64,000 nucleotides of DNA. It comes from Mesorhizobium sp. B2-4-3 (GTDB lineage Bacteria > Pseudomonadota > Alphaproteobacteria > Rhizobiales > Rhizobiaceae). The translations under genes were made by a program, and so were the position numbers. Below, piece after piece: positions 12,377 through 64,000 of this stretch (position 1 is the stretch's first letter; each line of letters opens with the position of its first letter). The stretch covers positions 62,001 through 126,000 of the forward strand of contig NZ_VFVL01000003.1 in NCBI RefSeq assembly GCF_006442815.1, given 5' to 3'. Under the pieces are notes generated by a model. It ran no database searches, was not told the DNA's origin, and was given only the letters and a program-made list of their open reading frames with translations.

Positions 12377-12460
12377 CAGGAAATGGTGGCCAGGAAATGG
12401 TGGCCAGGAAATGGTGGCCAGGAAATGGTGGCCAGGAAATGGTGGCCAGGAAATGGTGGC
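12377..12460. repeat. Six perfect 14-bp tandem repeats (CAGGAAATGGTGGC)
   Basis: Six identical head-to-tail copies, 84 bases in all, end nine bases upstream of the copCD ATG on the minus strand. The unit is not a multiple of three. Perfect identity suggests recent slippage expansion. Copy number would change spacing in the translation-initiation region of copCD. Confidence 0.95.
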
Positions 12461-53618: not shown

Positions 53619-53731
53619 GGGTCCCCACCAGCGACGAGGCTTTTGCCGAGGAGCTTAAGGGTGGGGCAAAAAAACGGGGTCCCCACCAGCGACGAGGCTT
53701 TCGCCGAGGAGCTTAAGCGTGGGGCAAAAAA
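53619..53731. repeat. Two tandem 58-bp repeats with internal hairpins
   Basis: Copies start at 53619 and 53677 and differ at only a few positions, mostly at their 3' ends. Each contains CCCCACC / GGTGGGG-type arms (the second copy has CGTGGGG) and a trailing run of A. They occupy the region where the promoter and 5' leader of the Tm-1-like gene should be. Confidence 0.85.
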
Positions 53732-58010: not shown

Positions 58011-59621
58011 ATGTCCGACTTGACGATTTCACGCCGCGGCCTGCTGGCCGGCTCGGCGCTGCTTCTGGCCTCGACCGCGCTGCCGACCATCGGCTTCGCG
58101 CAGACGCCGAAGAAGGGAGGCCGGCTGATCCTTGCCGCCGATTCCGAGCCGCGCAACCTCAACCCGGCGATCGTCGCCTCCAACGGTGTCTTCTTCATCT
58201 CGAGCAAGATCGTCGAGACGCTGGCCGAAGCCTCCTTCGACGGCAAGGACGGGCTCGAACCGCGCCTGGCCCTTTCCTGGGAAGGTGCCGCCGACGGCCT
58301 GACGGTGACCTTCAAGTTGCGCGACGGCGTCAAATGGCATGACGGCAAGCCCTTCACCTCCGCCGACGTCGCCTTCTCGGCGCTGCAGATCTGGAAGCCG
58401 CTGCAAAATCTCGGCCGCACGGTGTTCAAGGACCTGGAGGCCGTGGACACGCCGGACGAGCTGACGGCGGTCTTCAAATTCGCCAAGCCGACGCCGTTCC
58501 AGCTGATCCGCAACGCGCTGCCGGCGCTGTCGAGCGTCGTGCCGAAGCACCTTTATGAGGTGGGCAAGATCGAGGACAATCCGGCCAACAACGCGCCGGT
58601 CGGCACCGGCCCGTTCAAGTTCGCCGAATACAAGGCCGGGCAATATTACCGTCTGGCCAGGAACGACGCCTATTGGGGCAAGGACGAACCCTATCTCGAC
58701 GAGATCGTCTACCAGGTGCTCCCCGATCGCACCTCGGCCGCCGCTGCGCTCGAGGCGGAAGAGATCCAGCTTGCCGCCTTCTCCGCCGTGCCGCTCGCCG
58801 ATCTCGACCGCATTTCCAAGGTGCCGGGTCTCAAGGTCATCACCAAGGGCTATGAGGGGCTGACCTACCAGCTCGTCGTCGAGATCAACCACCGCCGCAA
58901 GGAGCTGGCCGACCTGAAAGTGCGGCAGGCGATCGCGCATGCCATCGACAAGGATTTCGTCATCAAGACGATCTTCCTCGGCTACGCCGCGGCCGCCACC
59001 GGCCCGGTGCCGAAAAACGATCCGCAATTCTACACCGCCGACGTGCCGACCTATGCCTTCGACGTCGCCAAGGCCAATGCGCTTCTCGACGAGGCCGGCT
59101 ACAAGCGCGCCGACGACGGCAAGCGCTTTGCGCTGAAGCTGCTGCCGGCGCCCTACTTCAACGAGACGAAACAGTTCGGCGACTATCTGCGCCAGGCGCT
59201 CGCGGCAATCGGCATCGACGCCGAGATCGTCAACAACGACTCGGCGGCCCACATCAAGGCCGTCTATACCGATCATGCCTTCGACCTCGCCGTCGGCCCG
59301 CCGGTGTTCCGCGGCGACCCGGCGATTTCCACCACCATCCTGGTGCAGAGCGGCATCCCGGACGGCGTGCCCTTCTCCAACCAGGGCGGCTACAAGAACG
59401 CCGACCTCGACGCGCTGATCATCAAGGCATCCGAGACGCTGGATACGTCAGCCCGCACCGAGCTCTACAAGGAGTTCCAGAAGAAGGTGGCGGCCGATCT
59501 GCCGCTGATCAACGTCGCCGAATGGAGCTTCATCTCCGTCGCCCGCGACACGGTCGGCAACATCGCCAACAACCCGCGCTGGGCGGTGTCGAACTGGGCA
59601 GACACCTATCTCGCGGGCTAG
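58011..59621 (+). CDS. Peptide/nickel-type ABC transporter substrate-binding protein
   Basis: 536 residues. A twin-arginine signal (ISRRGLLAGSALLLAS, Arg8-Arg9) with cleavage after about residue 30 (GFA before QTPKKGG). The mature protein is a family-5 extracellular binding protein (DSEPRNLNPAI, VTFKLRDGVKWHDGKPFTSADVAFS). Such proteins bind di/oligopeptides, nickel, opines or glycosides. GGGGAG lies nine bases before the ATG. It heads the importer operon with two permeases and two ATPases. Confidence 0.92.
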   Translation: MSDLTISRRGLLAGSALLLASTALPTIGFAQTPKKGGRLILAADSEPRNLNPAIVASNGVFFISSKIVETLAEASFDGKDGLEPRLALSWEGAADGLTVTFKLRDGVKWHDGKPFTSADVAFSALQIWKPLQNLGRTVFKDLEAVDTPDELTAVFKFAKPTPFQLIRNALPALSSVVPKHLYEVGKIEDNPANNAPVGTGPFKFAEYKAGQYYRLARNDAYWGKDEPYLDEIVYQVLPDRTSAAAALEAEEIQLAAFSAVPLADLDRISKVPGLKVITKGYEGLTYQLVVEINHRRKELADLKVRQAIAHAIDKDFVIKTIFLGYAAAATGPVPKNDPQFYTADVPTYAFDVAKANALLDEAGYKRADDGKRFALKLLPAPYFNETKQFGDYLRQALAAIGIDAEIVNNDSAAHIKAVYTDHAFDLAVGPPVFRGDPAISTTILVQSGIPDGVPFSNQGGYKNADLDALIIKASETLDTSARTELYKEFQKKVAADLPLINVAEWSFISVARDTVGNIANNPRWAVSNWADTYLAG

Positions 59622-59677
59622 CATTTTCCTAAGGCTTGCACATCGCCTAATCGGGTGCTCAGCTTCCACGGTGAGAG

Positions 59678-59854
59678 TTCCTTCGCGCCCCCCTCTGTCC
59701 TGCCGGACATCTCCCCCATTAGGGGGGAGATTGGCGGCTTCCGCGCCCCTTACCTCTCTGCAACCTTGGAGATTGGCGAACGCCGTGACGACAGCTGATC
59801 TCCCCCCAAGTGGGGGAGATGTCCGGCAGGACAGAGGGGGGCGCCGTAGAGCGC
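59678..59854. repeat. 177-bp palindromic repeat, intergenic copy
   Basis: Left end TTCCTTCGCGCCC...CTGTCCTGCCGGACATCTCCCCC and right end GGGGGAGATGTCCGGCAGG...GGCGCCGTAGAGCGC form inverted arms of about 33 bases. Further small hairpins (CTCCCCCATTAGGGGGGAG) lie inside. A second copy of the same family lies within the downstream ATPase gene at 61929. It occupies most of the 267-base gap between the binding protein and first permease. Confidence 0.85.
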
Positions 59855-59888
59855 GACCTCAGAGGCTTGCGAACAGCGTACTTTCGCC

Positions 59889-60875
59889 ATGACCCGCGCC
59901 CTCGCCCTCCTCCACCGCCGTCTCGTCGGCAGCGTCTTCGTGCTCCTCATCGTCGTCATCGGCAGCTTCCTGCTGCTCGAAGCCGCCCCCGGTGATGCCG
60001 TCGACGCCTATATCGTCTCGACCGGCGGCGATGCCGGCATGATCGAATTGCTGCGCCATCGATGGGGCCTCGACCAGTCGGAACTGACGCGGCTAGCCAA
60101 CTACCTCTGGGCGCTGCTGCATCTCGACCTCGGCCAGTCGGTCACCTTCTCGCGGCCGATCCGCGAAATCATCTTCGAGCGCCTGCCGACCACGCTGATC
60201 CTGATGGGCAGCGCCACCGCGCTCTCCTTCTGCCTGGGCTCGGCGCTTGGCATCTATGCCGGTGCCCGGCCCGGCAGCTTTCGCGACCGCCTCCTGTCGA
60301 TCGGCTCGCTGGCGCTCTATGCCGTGCCCGGCTTCTGGCTCGGCCTTGTGCTCATCGTCGTCTTTGCCGTCGACCTGCGCTGGCTGCCGATCGGCGGCAT
60401 CGAGACCATCGCGTCGGCCAAGACCGGGCTGGCGCGGGCCCACGACATCGCCACTCATCTCGTGCTGCCGGTCTCGGCGCTCGGCTTTATTTATCTCGCG
60501 CTCTATCTGCGCATGATGCGCGCCGGCATGGCAGAGGCCTGGCGGCAGGATTTCGTGCTTGCCGCTCGAGCGCGAGGCCTGTCGCGCCGCCGCATCGTGC
60601 TTGCCCATGTTGCCCGCAACGCGCTTCTGCCCTTGGTCACCATGCTTGGCCTGCAATCGGCACAGATGCTGGGCGGCAGCGTCGTCATCGAAAGCGTTTT
60701 CGCCGTGCCGGGTCTCGGCCGCCTGGCGCAGGAAGCCGTCGCCGGACGCGACACGCCGCTGCTGCTCGGCATCATCCTGGTCAGCACCGTCCTGGTCATC
60801 ATCATCAATCTTCTGGTCGACCTCGCCTACGCTGTCCTCGATCCGCGCGTCGGCGCCAGCGAGGCAAGCGCATGA
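59889..60875 (+). CDS. Peptide/nickel-type ABC transporter permease (DppB family)
   Basis: 328 residues with six helices and DppB-type motifs: GDAVDAYIVSTGGDAGMIELLRHRWGLDQ at the periplasmic start and the EAA loop ARARGLSRRRIVLAHVARNALLPLV. No clear ribosome-binding site precedes ATG at 59889. Its stop overlaps the next permease (ATGA). Confidence 0.9.
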   Translation: MTRALALLHRRLVGSVFVLLIVVIGSFLLLEAAPGDAVDAYIVSTGGDAGMIELLRHRWGLDQSELTRLANYLWALLHLDLGQSVTFSRPIREIIFERLPTTLILMGSATALSFCLGSALGIYAGARPGSFRDRLLSIGSLALYAVPGFWLGLVLIVVFAVDLRWLPIGGIETIASAKTGLARAHDIATHLVLPVSALGFIYLALYLRMMRAGMAEAWRQDFVLAARARGLSRRRIVLAHVARNALLPLVTMLGLQSAQMLGGSVVIESVFAVPGLGRLAQEAVAGRDTPLLLGIILVSTVLVIIINLLVDLAYAVLDPRVGASEASA

Positions 60876-61702
60876 ACCGCCTGCGTCGTTTCTTGCAGAC
60901 GCCGGAGGCGATTGCCGGCGCAATCATCCTGGCCTTGCTCATCGTGATGGCGTTGGCGGCGCCGCTGCTGTTTCCCGGCGACCCGCAGGCGATCGCCGGG
61001 CCGGCGCTGCTGCCGCCGTTCCAGGACCTGTCGCTGCCGCTCGGCACCGACCGGCTCGGCCGCGACGTGCTGGCCGAGCTGTTCCATGGCGCCCGCACGT
61101 CGCTGGCGGTGGGGCTGGCGGCGGCCGCCGCTGCGCTCCTCATCGGCTCGGTCGTCGGCACTTTGGCCGGCTTTGCCGGCGGCCTGGTCGACGATGTGCT
61201 GATGCGCATCACGGATGCCTTCCAGACCGTGCCGGGCTTCCTGCTCGCGCTCGCTTTCGTCAGCATTGTTGGCCCCTCGCTCGGCGTCGTCGTCGCCGCG
61301 ATCGCGCTCGGCGCCTGGACCGGACCGGCGCGGGTGGCACGCGCGGAAGTCCTGTCGATCCGCGAGCGCGATTATGTCGCCGGCGCCCGCGTCATCGGCA
61401 TGCATCCGCTCGAAATAGCCTTTCGCGAGGTGCTGCCCAACGCCCTGCCGCCGGTGCTGGCGCTGTCCTCGGTGATCGTCGCAGCGGCGATCCTCACTGA
61501 GGCAGCGCTCTCTTTCCTCGGCCTCGGCGACCCCAACCGCGTTACCTGGGGCGGCATGATCGCCGAGGGACGTACGGTGCTGCGAACCGCTCCCTTCCTG
61601 TCGGTCGTTCCCGGTATCGCGCTGGTGCTGACCGTGCTCGGCGTCTACCTCGCCGGCGAAGGCGTGGTGGAAAGCACCGCCGTGCGCAGGAGCCTGTCGT
61701 GA
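60872..61702 (+). CDS. Peptide/nickel-type ABC transporter permease (DppC family)
   Basis: 276 residues, DppC type: LGTDRLGRDVLAELFHGARTSL, EAA loop RERDYVAGARVIGMHPLEIAFREVLPN and the ending LSFLGLGDPNRVTWGGMI. It overlaps the DppB gene by four bases and the ATPase gene by four. Confidence 0.92.
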   Translation: MNRLRRFLQTPEAIAGAIILALLIVMALAAPLLFPGDPQAIAGPALLPPFQDLSLPLGTDRLGRDVLAELFHGARTSLAVGLAAAAAALLIGSVVGTLAGFAGGLVDDVLMRITDAFQTVPGFLLALAFVSIVGPSLGVVVAAIALGAWTGPARVARAEVLSIRERDYVAGARVIGMHPLEIAFREVLPNALPPVLALSSVIVAAAILTEAALSFLGLGDPNRVTWGGMIAEGRTVLRTAPFLSVVPGIALVLTVLGVYLAGEGVVESTAVRRSLS

Positions 61703-62703
61703 CGGCGCTGCTGTCCATTCGCGATCTGTCGGTGCGCTATCGGCGCGATGGTGTGGGGGCACTGAAAGGTGTGAGCCTGCACGTCGAGGCCGGAGAGCGC
61801 CTGGCGATCATCGGCGAAAGCGGCTCGGGCAAGAGCACGCTGGCGCTGGCGGTCGCGGGGCTGTTGGCGAAGGGTGCTGTGATCGACGGAACCATCGAGT
61901 GGACGATACCAAAATCGCAAACGTCTCATTCCTTCGCGCCCCTCTCTGTCCTGCCGGACATCTCCCCCACAAGGGGGGAGATTGAGCCCTCATCGCCGCT
62001 TTCGCCAATCTCCAACGTTGTAGGAGAGATGCCGGCGGCGAAACCGCCAATCTCCCCCCTTGTGGGGGAGATGTCCGGCAGGACAGAGGGGGGCGCCGTA
62101 GAGCGCCAGCCTTCTCATCCACGCGATACCATCCCCCACCTCGGCCGTGACATCGGCTTCGTCTTCCAGGACCCCTCTTCCAGCCTCGACCCCGTAATGC
62201 CGGTCGGCAAGCAAATCGCGGAAGTAGCCCGCGCTCATCTTGGCCTCGGCTGGCCGCAATCCATGACCCTGGCCAAAACCCTGCTCGACCGCGTGCGCCT
62301 GCCTAGCCCGGACGCCGTGCTCTACGCCTACCCGCACCAGCTCTCCGGCGGCCAGAAGCAGCGCGTGGCGATTGCCGCGGCAATCGCTGCTGGACCAAAG
62401 CTCTTGATCGCCGACGAAGCGACCAGCGCCCTCGATACCATCGTCCAGGCCGAGATTGTCGCCCTGATCCGCAGGCTGGTCGCCGAGGACGGCATGACGC
62501 TGCTCTTCATCAGCCACGACATCGCGCTCGCCGCCACGCTTGCCGATCGTATCGCGGTACTGCGCCACGGCGAACTGATCGAGCTCGGCGAGACGGACCA
62601 GATCCTCAATGCGCCGCGCCATGCCTATACGCGGTCCCTGCTCGATGCCCATCTCGGCCTCGACGCCAGACCGCTGCTTGACCGGCAAGGCGCGTCGGCA
62701 TGA
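61699..62703 (+). CDS. Peptide/nickel-type ABC ATPase (DppD family) with in-frame repeat insertion
   Basis: 334 residues from GTG at 61699, overlapping the permease stop (GTGA). Walker A GESGSGKST (39-47), Q-loop GFVFQDP (Gln157), signature LSGGQKQR (215-222), Walker B LLIADEATSALD are intact. Between Walker A and the Q-loop, residues about 77-136 come from a palindromic repeat that also occurs at 59678. That stretch is Pro/Ser/Gly-rich (for example PISPLVGEMSGRTEGGAVER) and has no counterpart in normal DppD. The C-terminal oligopeptide-type tail is short. Activity is probably retained, but this needs testing. Confidence 0.88.
   Translation: MTALLSIRDLSVRYRRDGVGALKGVSLHVEAGERLAIIGESGSGKSTLALAVAGLLAKGAVIDGTIEWTIPKSQTSHSFAPLSVLPDISPTRGEIEPSSPLSPISNVVGEMPAAKPPISPLVGEMSGRTEGGAVERQPSHPRDTIPHLGRDIGFVFQDPSSSLDPVMPVGKQIAEVARAHLGLGWPQSMTLAKTLLDRVRLPSPDAVLYAYPHQLSGGQKQRVAIAAAIAAGPKLLIADEATSALDTIVQAEIVALIRRLVAEDGMTLLFISHDIALAATLADRIAVLRHGELIELGETDQILNAPRHAYTRSLLDAHLGLDARPLLDRQGASA
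61929..62106. repeat. 178-bp palindromic repeat, copy inserted in frame in the ATPase gene
   Basis: Matches the 59678 copy at both ends (TTCCTTCGCGCCC...GACATCTCCCCC and GGGGGAGATGTCCGGCAGGA...CGCCGTAGAGCGC), with a more diverged middle. It reads open in the ATPase frame throughout. Confidence 0.88.
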
Positions 62704-63476
62704 CCGTGCTTGCCGTCTCCAATCTGGCCAAGCGCTACCGTCGCGGCGGCAAGCCTTTCGCGGCGGTCGACGACGTGTCTTTCGAGATCGGCCGAGCGGA
62801 AACGCTGGCGCTCGCCGGCCCCTCCGGCAGCGGCAAATCCACCATCGCGCGGCTGGTGCTGCGTCTGATCGAGCCCGATGCCGGCCGCATCGACTTCGAA
62901 GGCGCGGATTTCCTCGCGCTGTCGGGCGCCGCGCTACGCGCCCGCCGCGCCCGCCTGCAAATGGTGTTCCAGGATCCGCTCGCCGCCTTCAATCCGCGCG
63001 CCACGGTGGCGCGCGTGCTGGACGATCCATTGCGCATTCACAACATCGCCTCGCGCGCGGAGCGTCCGCGCCGGATCGCGGCGCTGCTCGAGCGCGTCGG
63101 CCTCGACGCCAGCCTTGCCAGCCGCGCCATCCACGAGATTTCCGGCGGCCAGCGCCAGCGCGTTGCGATCGCCCGCGCCATCGCCACGCGACCGTCGCTG
63201 ATCGTCCTCGATGAGGCGGTGTCGGCGCTCGACGTATCGGTGCGCGGGCAGATCCTGGAACTGCTGCTCGACCTGCAGCGGCAGGAACGGATCGCCTATC
63301 TGTTCATTTCCCATGACCTCGGCGTCATCCGCGCCGTGGCGCACCGCATCATCGTCCTCGATTCCGGCAGGGTCGCCGAGAGCGGAGATGCCCGCGCCGT
63401 CATCGCCAACCCGCAATCGGCGATCGGCAAGGCGCTGGTGGCGGCGACGCCAAGATTGACTAGGAGCCGACCATGA
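62700..63476 (+). CDS. Peptide/nickel-type ABC ATPase (DppF family)
   Basis: 258 residues, shorter than typical DppF (about 320) because the C-terminal Cys-rich tail region is absent. Walker A GPSGSGKST, Q-loop MVFQDPLAAFNPR, signature ISGGQRQR and Walker B LIVLDEAVSALD are intact. It pairs with the DppD-like ATPase; the start overlaps that gene by ATGA. The stop codon lies in a palindromic repeat. Confidence 0.9.
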   Translation: MTVLAVSNLAKRYRRGGKPFAAVDDVSFEIGRAETLALAGPSGSGKSTIARLVLRLIEPDAGRIDFEGADFLALSGAALRARRARLQMVFQDPLAAFNPRATVARVLDDPLRIHNIASRAERPRRIAALLERVGLDASLASRAIHEISGGQRQRVAIARAIATRPSLIVLDEAVSALDVSVRGQILELLLDLQRQERIAYLFISHDLGVIRAVAHRIIVLDSGRVAESGDARAVIANPQSAIGKALVAATPRLTRSRP

Positions 63477-63517
63477 TCCCGCAAAGTGGGACCCGGTTTG
63501 CGGACAAGACCATGGTC
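63469..63517. repeat. Palindromic repeat at the 3' end of the DppF gene
   Basis: GACCATG...CCCGCAAA and TTTGCGG...CATGGTC form inverted arms. The TGA stop at 63474-63476 is inside the left arm. It resembles the frequent Mesorhizobium-type CATGATCC...GGTCAAAC intergenic repeat. Confidence 0.75.
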
Positions 63518-63540
63518 AAACAACAACATCAGGACACGCC

Positions 63541-64000
63541 ATGACCGATCCCGAATCCGCCAGAGCCGAAAAGCTGTCGGGCGAGCTCGACTCCGCCTTC
63601 CGCAACCGCGCCGACCTCTACCGCCTTTTCCTCGAAGAGCTGACCGCCGAGATCGGCGCCGAGAAGGCCGAGGCGGTGATGATCCGCAGCATCGAGAAGC
63701 GCGGCCGGGAGGTCGCGGCGGCGGCCTTCGCCGGCTTCGGCCCCAATGACGCGCCGGCGATCGGCGAAGCGTTTCTCGCCGTCAGCCCGGATGGCGGGCG
63801 CATGTATCCCACCGATGTCGAGCGAGGGCAGGACCACATCGCCTTCAAGGTGAAGCGCTGCCCGCTGAAAGACGCCTGGATCGAAGCCGGCGTCGGCGAG
63901 GGAAAACTCGCCACGCTCTGCCGCATCGCCGGCGCCTTCGACCGCGGCCTGTTCGAGGCGACCGGCGTGCGCTTCGCCAATATCACCTGGACGCCTGGCC
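63541..64000 (+). CDS. L-2-amino-thiazoline-4-carboxylic acid hydrolase-like protein, cut by window edge
   Basis: 153 codons visible from ATG at 63541; the 3' end is beyond the window. The sequence (RSIEKRGREVAAAAFAG, GRMYPTDVERGQDHIAFKVKRCPLKDAW, ATLCRIAGAFDRG) fits the ATC-hydrolase family, one step in the Pseudomonas conversion of a thiazoline to cysteine. Many family members have other, unknown roles. It follows a peptide-type importer on the same strand, so hydrolysis of the imported compound is a reasonable inference. Confidence 0.7.
   Translation, partial: MTDPESARAEKLSGELDSAFRNRADLYRLFLEELTAEIGAEKAEAVMIRSIEKRGREVAAAAFAGFGPNDAPAIGEAFLAVSPDGGRMYPTDVERGQDHIAFKVKRCPLKDAWIEAGVGEGKLATLCRIAGAFDRGLFEATGVRFANITWTPG

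Follow-up and report, generated by a model that had tools for sequence, protein, structure and literature searches.

A Mesorhizobium palindromic repeat resembling the Rickettsia palindromic elements, carried in frame by a DppD-like transporter ATPase

To our knowledge, protein-coding palindromes are known chiefly from the obligate intracellular Rickettsia and Wolbachia. The accessible portions of the literature describe the Rickettsia palindromic elements (RPEs) as palindromes that occupy in-frame positions in genes unrelated to one another (Ogata et al., 2000, 2002; PMC10969869; PMC2229807), and report for the one enzyme tested, a guanylate kinase with an RPE insert, that it is translated and active (PMC2229807). 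In several bacteria, ORFs have also been seen to contain in-frame GTAG/CGTC-tagged REPs, which lengthen the product by 20-82 residues (PMC3733652). Here we analyze a stretch of 64,000 nucleotides from Mesorhizobium sp. B2-4-3 (“the window”), in which a palindromic repeat sits in frame within a DppD-like ATPase gene. In our judgement it is probably an RPE-like protein-coding palindrome of Mesorhizobium placed in a surface loop. Recombination among dispersed copies would overwrite or invert its interior, and selection would keep only the readable outcomes.

The host gene belongs to a complete dppABCDF-like operon on the + strand, which comprises a DppA-like solute-binding protein (SBP_bac_5; 58011-59621; PF00496, 8.3e-87), a DppB-like permease (59889-60875; PF00528), a DppC-like permease (60872-61702, searched as 60875-61699; PF00528/PF12911), the DppD-like oligopeptide/dipeptide ABC transporter ATPase (61699-62703, 334 aa; PF00005, 5.6e-27) and a DppF-like ATPase (62700-63476; PF00005). 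Start and stop codons overlap at dppC/dppD, where the end of dppC covers the GTG start of dppD, and at dppD/dppF. The dppD frame remains open through the insert, situated between Walker A and the Q-loop, and Walker A, Q-loop, signature and Walker B are all intact. When aligned, solved DppD and OppD proteins match both sides of the insert and not the insert itself. The predicted structure gives residues 72-143 a pLDDT below 50 and most of the core values above 85; as modelled, the insert is a disordered surface loop lying between two strands of a DppD fold that is itself predicted with confidence, and such a surface position, compatible with the fold, is the one expected of an RPE-type insert. 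Elsewhere in the window, six 14-base units (CAGGAAATGGTGGC) form a perfect tandem array (12377-12460), and a 58-base near-perfect tandem duplication occupies 53619-53731.

The full element is a palindrome of about 160 bp (61936-62096, + strand; nhmmer E 4.6e-46), built from two 49-bp arms and a 64-nt loop and reading in frame alpha as APLSVLPDISPTRGEI-loop-ISPLVGEMSGRTEGGA. Its left (61936-61984) and right (62048-62096) arms, also given on the + strand, are 98% complementary over 49 nt and enclose a loop (61984-62047, +) in orientation A. Its RNA fold reaches -144.9 kcal/mol (z -17), and across 50 orthologous dppD copies 94% of the arm pairs are Watson-Crick over 42 positions, with 35 compensatory cells. 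A second full copy occupies the dppA-dppB intergenic region on the - strand (59685-59844, within a broader repeat at 59678-59854). Block comparison of the repeat copies within 59000-64000 matched 61929-61984 to 59678-59733 (95%) and 62043-62106 to 59791-59854 (92%). The preliminary description is borne out in two respects: a repeat of about 178 bases in the DppD-like gene matching an upstream intergenic palindrome, and an insert open between Walker A and the Q-loop with the ATPase motifs unharmed. A profile made from 30 genome copies detected exactly two elements in the window, each with E ~1e-46; the coding one lies on the + strand, and the intergenic one scores best on the - strand. As regards the target-site duplication of a MITE, TCTCAT-like direct repeats flank the dppD copy, and none were seen around the intergenic copy; one congener locus (L076) corresponds to the exact deletion between them.

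This pair belongs to a large dispersed family. The stem core CCTGCCGGACATCTCCCCC, allowing up to 3 mismatches, gives 118 + 118 matches in the 6.2-Mb genome, where the reversed control gives 0, and a palindrome of ~100-180 bp dispersed in so many copies (118 half-site pairs) is characteristic of the RPE type. Full-length copies number 57 in the 813 kb inspected of this genome. Stem half-sites fall at many contig ends (contigs C2, C6, C25, C45 and C67 of assembly G000, at position ~80-190), and congener contigs (L081, L083) terminate within the element; the copy counts are lower bounds because the repeat breaks assemblies. Rfam returned no match above the gathering score, and a known RNA family was discarded, the sub-threshold matches being mostly microRNA hairpin models and taken as chance. 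Relatives of the element are present on Rhizobium and Sinorhizobium plasmids, where no annotated gene lies beneath the matches among the annotated records.

Roughly one in two of the sampled Mesorhizobium species carries the insert, and the others have an in-frame remnant or an empty site. Searching the congeners found a match in 136 of 147 genomes, and in 66 of these 136 the full query aligns with its insert, the rest starting only at about residue 81-149. Seventy congener dppD loci, 3 more with the insert and 10 from other genera were compared, with insert length measured between fixed flanking residues. In outgroup genera without the insert, all 9 measurable loci have a 6-nt gap, as against 219 nt in the window gene, so that its absence from homologues, anticipated in the preliminary description, holds outside the genus. 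Within Mesorhizobium, the alleles include full inserts of 201-255 nt, in-frame remnants of 30-162 nt and sites that are empty (6 nt). Only L078, L080 and L087, whose frame is broken, and L090, which contains N, depart from lengths divisible by three. In L076 and L084 the remnants resemble losses of sequence bounded by short direct repeats, and in L092 a loss of the palindrome centre; the deletion in L076 is precise (SQTSH/PRDTI). Given the empty outgroups together with full, remnant and empty alleles, the element therefore entered within Mesorhizobium and the frame-keeping deletions came later. A recent insertion private to the strain is ruled out by this genus-wide spread, and an assembly artefact by the presence of the insert in single-contig genomes (G076, G101, G106, G079 and G077). 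The alleles L078, L080 and L087, whose frame breaks near the insert, may be homopolymer sequencing errors or true pseudogenes; L078 and L080 sit in long single contigs. The insert of L089 holds an additional in-frame segment of ~14 residues (GAPSAAAAQLLRRTG) inside its right arm, a second event within the element.

Besides DppD, two vitamin B12 enzymes host the element: CobG, with NIR/SIR domains, and CobN. These three account for the in-frame, gene-internal copies in recognisable genes, 3 of the 57 full copies, in a count spanning the 813 kb chosen around copies out of 6.2 Mb; the count excludes further ORFs that run across copies, C16:41739-43883 and C10:58467-60371 among them, since they have the look of antisense shadow frames. 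CobG aligns continuously through the insert region in 96 of 142 congener matches, and inserts were verified in 29 CobG and 27 CobN copies, picked from the best full-length matches, a choice that favours open frames. They occur in many species, complete genomes included. CobN carries the element in frame at two sites; at the second, near residue 203, it is partly in another frame, reduced to SHPPLSCRTEGGVT, or supplanted by a different repeat family. A proline/glycine-rich family (..PGPAGHPPLEGEGN.., SPSPLWGGSVRD..GHPPHKGEGKS) fills both sites in some species (CobN loci L381-L393, L174, L182 and L184), so that more than one kind of repeat can settle at these sites. At G000:C4:109973-115020 (L122), neighbouring CobG and CobN both hold an in-frame element, and insertion-tolerant genes may cluster in this way. 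The 82-nt CobG loops were discarded as proof of inversion, their two orientations being two sequence lineages. As in the RPE type, the insert thus stands in frame in intact conserved genes, namely DppD, CobG and CobN, and the outgroups are empty at the DppD site.

The earlier interpretation of an RPE-type in-frame palindrome within a rhizobial repeat family fits the nine empty outgroup loci and the 118 half-site pairs, and the further in-frame hosts that it led one to expect were found in CobG and CobN. Its suggestion that the element may spread as protein-coding sequence did not fare as well: only 3 of the 57 inspected copies read in frame inside a recognisable gene, the sites occupied in host genes are fixed and small in number, and it is mainly the interior that moves, by replacement or inversion, while the outer junctions stay. 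The insertion itself stood, refined to one that is old within the genus and not private to the strain; what had been missed is that the insert ranges across the genus, that its loop takes either orientation and that parts of it have been deleted in frame.

Loop length and stop codons bear on whether the insert is read as protein. DppD loops measure 64 (47 sequences), 67 (2) or 58 nt (1), i.e., 1 mod 3 in 50 of 50, while the intergenic loops of the same genome peak at 63 and 62 nt and are 1 mod 3 in 5 of 54. Pooling DppD, CobN and CobG gives 106/106 vs. 5/54, with a Fisher p of 7e-36 that is only indicative, since the sequences are related and the CobN/CobG copies were best-match choices. No in-frame stop occurs in the 50 DppD loops as read, 13 would contain one if flipped, and 10-11 of the 54 intergenic loops have a stop in that frame. 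By virtue of these two filters the insert is very probably translated, as an extra segment of ~60 residues, and filtered for frame. Against simple read-through stands the 49-bp hairpin (-145 kcal/mol) that the mRNA would hold, which would likely hinder ribosomes or be open to cleavage by RNase III. Its extreme stability, together with the few frame-broken alleles (L078, L080 and L087), speaks for a segment that is not translated at all, being excised from the mRNA, hopped over, or part of a decaying gene; we consider this highly improbable, as excision or hopping would require neither 1 mod 3 loops nor stop avoidance, both of which hold, and the flanks of the insert are under normal coding constraint (diversity of.13-.22/.08-.14/.32-.40 at codon positions 1/2/3). 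A single ancient insertion, vertically inherited and domesticated, its peptide conserved for function, would suit both the constancy of site and frame across the genus and an arm peptide that is nearly constant (APPSVLPDISP..GEMSGRTEGG), but the arms show the same level of variation at each codon position, just as noncoding copies do (.071/.091/.092 in dppD vs..072/.091/.106), and at position 3 far less than the gene flanks (.32-.40), and purifying selection on the arm peptide was ruled out on this ground. The arm partners also covary (one position is A-T in 16, T-A in 15 and G-C in 16 of 50 sequences), so that the arms bear the signature of a DNA palindrome and not of a selected peptide. Added to this, the loops carry no locus-specific signature and are found in both orientations, and the insert has been lost in frame in many species, all of which makes domestication extremely unlikely.

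The loops tell of a different kind of change. Among 51 scored dppD-site loops, 20 are in orientation A and 31 in B, the outer junctions remaining unchanged in direction; on the flank-based gene tree, orientation changes 16 times, against 16.0 +/- 1.7 for shuffled labels, and phylogenetic signal in loop orientation was dismissed accordingly. Pairs with 6-8% flank divergence mostly have loops 18-31% different, as in random pairs, and nearly identical loops were seen in few pairs only (L055/L065 and L045/L087); the weak loop-flank correlation (r ~0.2) shows some vertical inheritance. In the closest pair sampled (G091/G141), 12 orthologous sites could be matched by both flanks: 6 are conserved, with loops 0-5% different (d <=.05), 5 are replaced (d >.19 in either orientation), and 1, inside cobG, is inverted (d_same.356, d_inv.048). 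The gap between these classes favours replacement from a pool over fast point mutation. The orthologous dppA-dppB intergenic copy has an identical loop in both genomes. No donor loop near-identical to the window copy was found, the nearest loop in its own genome differing by 11%. Two loops from one genome resemble each other no more than two from different genomes do, each genome having one or two near-identical pairs, and the donors may therefore be local copies or other strains' DNA. Repeated independent insertion could produce a similar picture if DppD, CobG and CobN were preferred targets at which lineages lose and regain elements, only in-frame arrivals surviving. Loop sequence and orientation that look random with respect to phylogeny would agree with it, and so would the empty sites, the precise short-direct-repeat deletions (SQTSH/PRDTI in L076) and the different repeat family held by CobN sites in some species. 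We nevertheless find it rather unlikely: the insertion point never varies, the outer junctions (SFAPP..AVERQ and similar) keep one orientation while the loop flips, and G091/G141 combine one clean in-place inversion with six conserved sites.

The reading that we favour, an RPE-like palindrome with a recombining interior, would start from an inverted-repeat element of ~160 bp, mostly intergenic, that entered the surface loop of the DppD-like ATPase within Mesorhizobium. Since the length of the element (64-nt loop) and its sequence leave the frame open, dppD would be read through it, adding a disordered segment of ~60 residues and leaving the ATPase motifs untouched. Because the long near-identical arms act as homology, the loop would then repeatedly be exchanged for that of another family member, and at times be inverted where it lies. 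Outcomes that shift the frame or bring in stops would be removed by selection acting on the host protein; this selection would tolerate the loss of some or the whole of the element so long as the frame is kept. The route of loop change would be recombination between copies, by gene conversion or by exchange with other strains' DNA, and the insert peptide is presumably neutral or mildly costly for the enzyme. It is also conceivable, though we think it very unlikely, that in-frame palindromes work as recombination cassettes with a large intergenic silent library, replacement and inversion by way of the arms continually supplying DppD, CobG and CobN with new, frame-compatible surface segments of ~20 residues that are possibly useful to the cell and more than just tolerated.

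Carried by a free-living soil genus in three conserved enzymes of many species, the Mesorhizobium inserts constitute a natural experiment, since alleles that are full, partial, empty or broken exist side by side, and one segment separates two forces: overwriting from a repeat pool at the DNA level, and a strict frame and stop filter at the protein level. Two matters become testable, namely whether selfish repeats can turn into a lasting supply of new protein segments, and how the ribosome handles a 49-bp hairpin in a coding region.

Among described systems, and as far as the accessible text of the sources goes, RIMEs (Osteras, 1995, cited in PMC2573895) are likewise palindromic repeats of rhizobia, but they are described as intergenic, while the Mesorhizobium element is also coding; the two are likened by description alone. 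Intragenic REPs share the in-frame position inside an ORF, but they are 20-40 bp units or clusters, and the Mesorhizobium element is one palindrome of ~160 bp (PMC3733652). The Wolbachia palindromic elements (Ogata et al., 2005, cited in PMC2229807) are, from what is available of that source, also protein-coding palindromic repeats of an alphaproteobacterium, in a different host and likened here by description, not residue by residue. By anatomy and behaviour the element is of the RPE kind, a likeness to the RPE and RIME families drawn from description and not from sequence. It shares with the Rickettsia elements, as the accessible parts of those reports present them, a palindrome of ~100-150 bp in many copies, placed in frame in conserved genes and adding tens of residues at tolerated positions. 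Unlike them, it resides in a free-living rhizobial genus, in few host genes, and is kept across much of the genus; its loop occurs in both orientations, is replaced at the same coding site and passes a clear length (mod 3) filter. Many subscription papers lay outside our search, within which no published report of a loop in both orientations, of coding-site replacement or of a mod-3 filter was found. As far as the literature searched goes, the novelty thus lies in the fact that a free-living genus has retained such an element in three of its conserved enzymes, in the length filter, and in the overwriting and inversion of its loop at a coding site.
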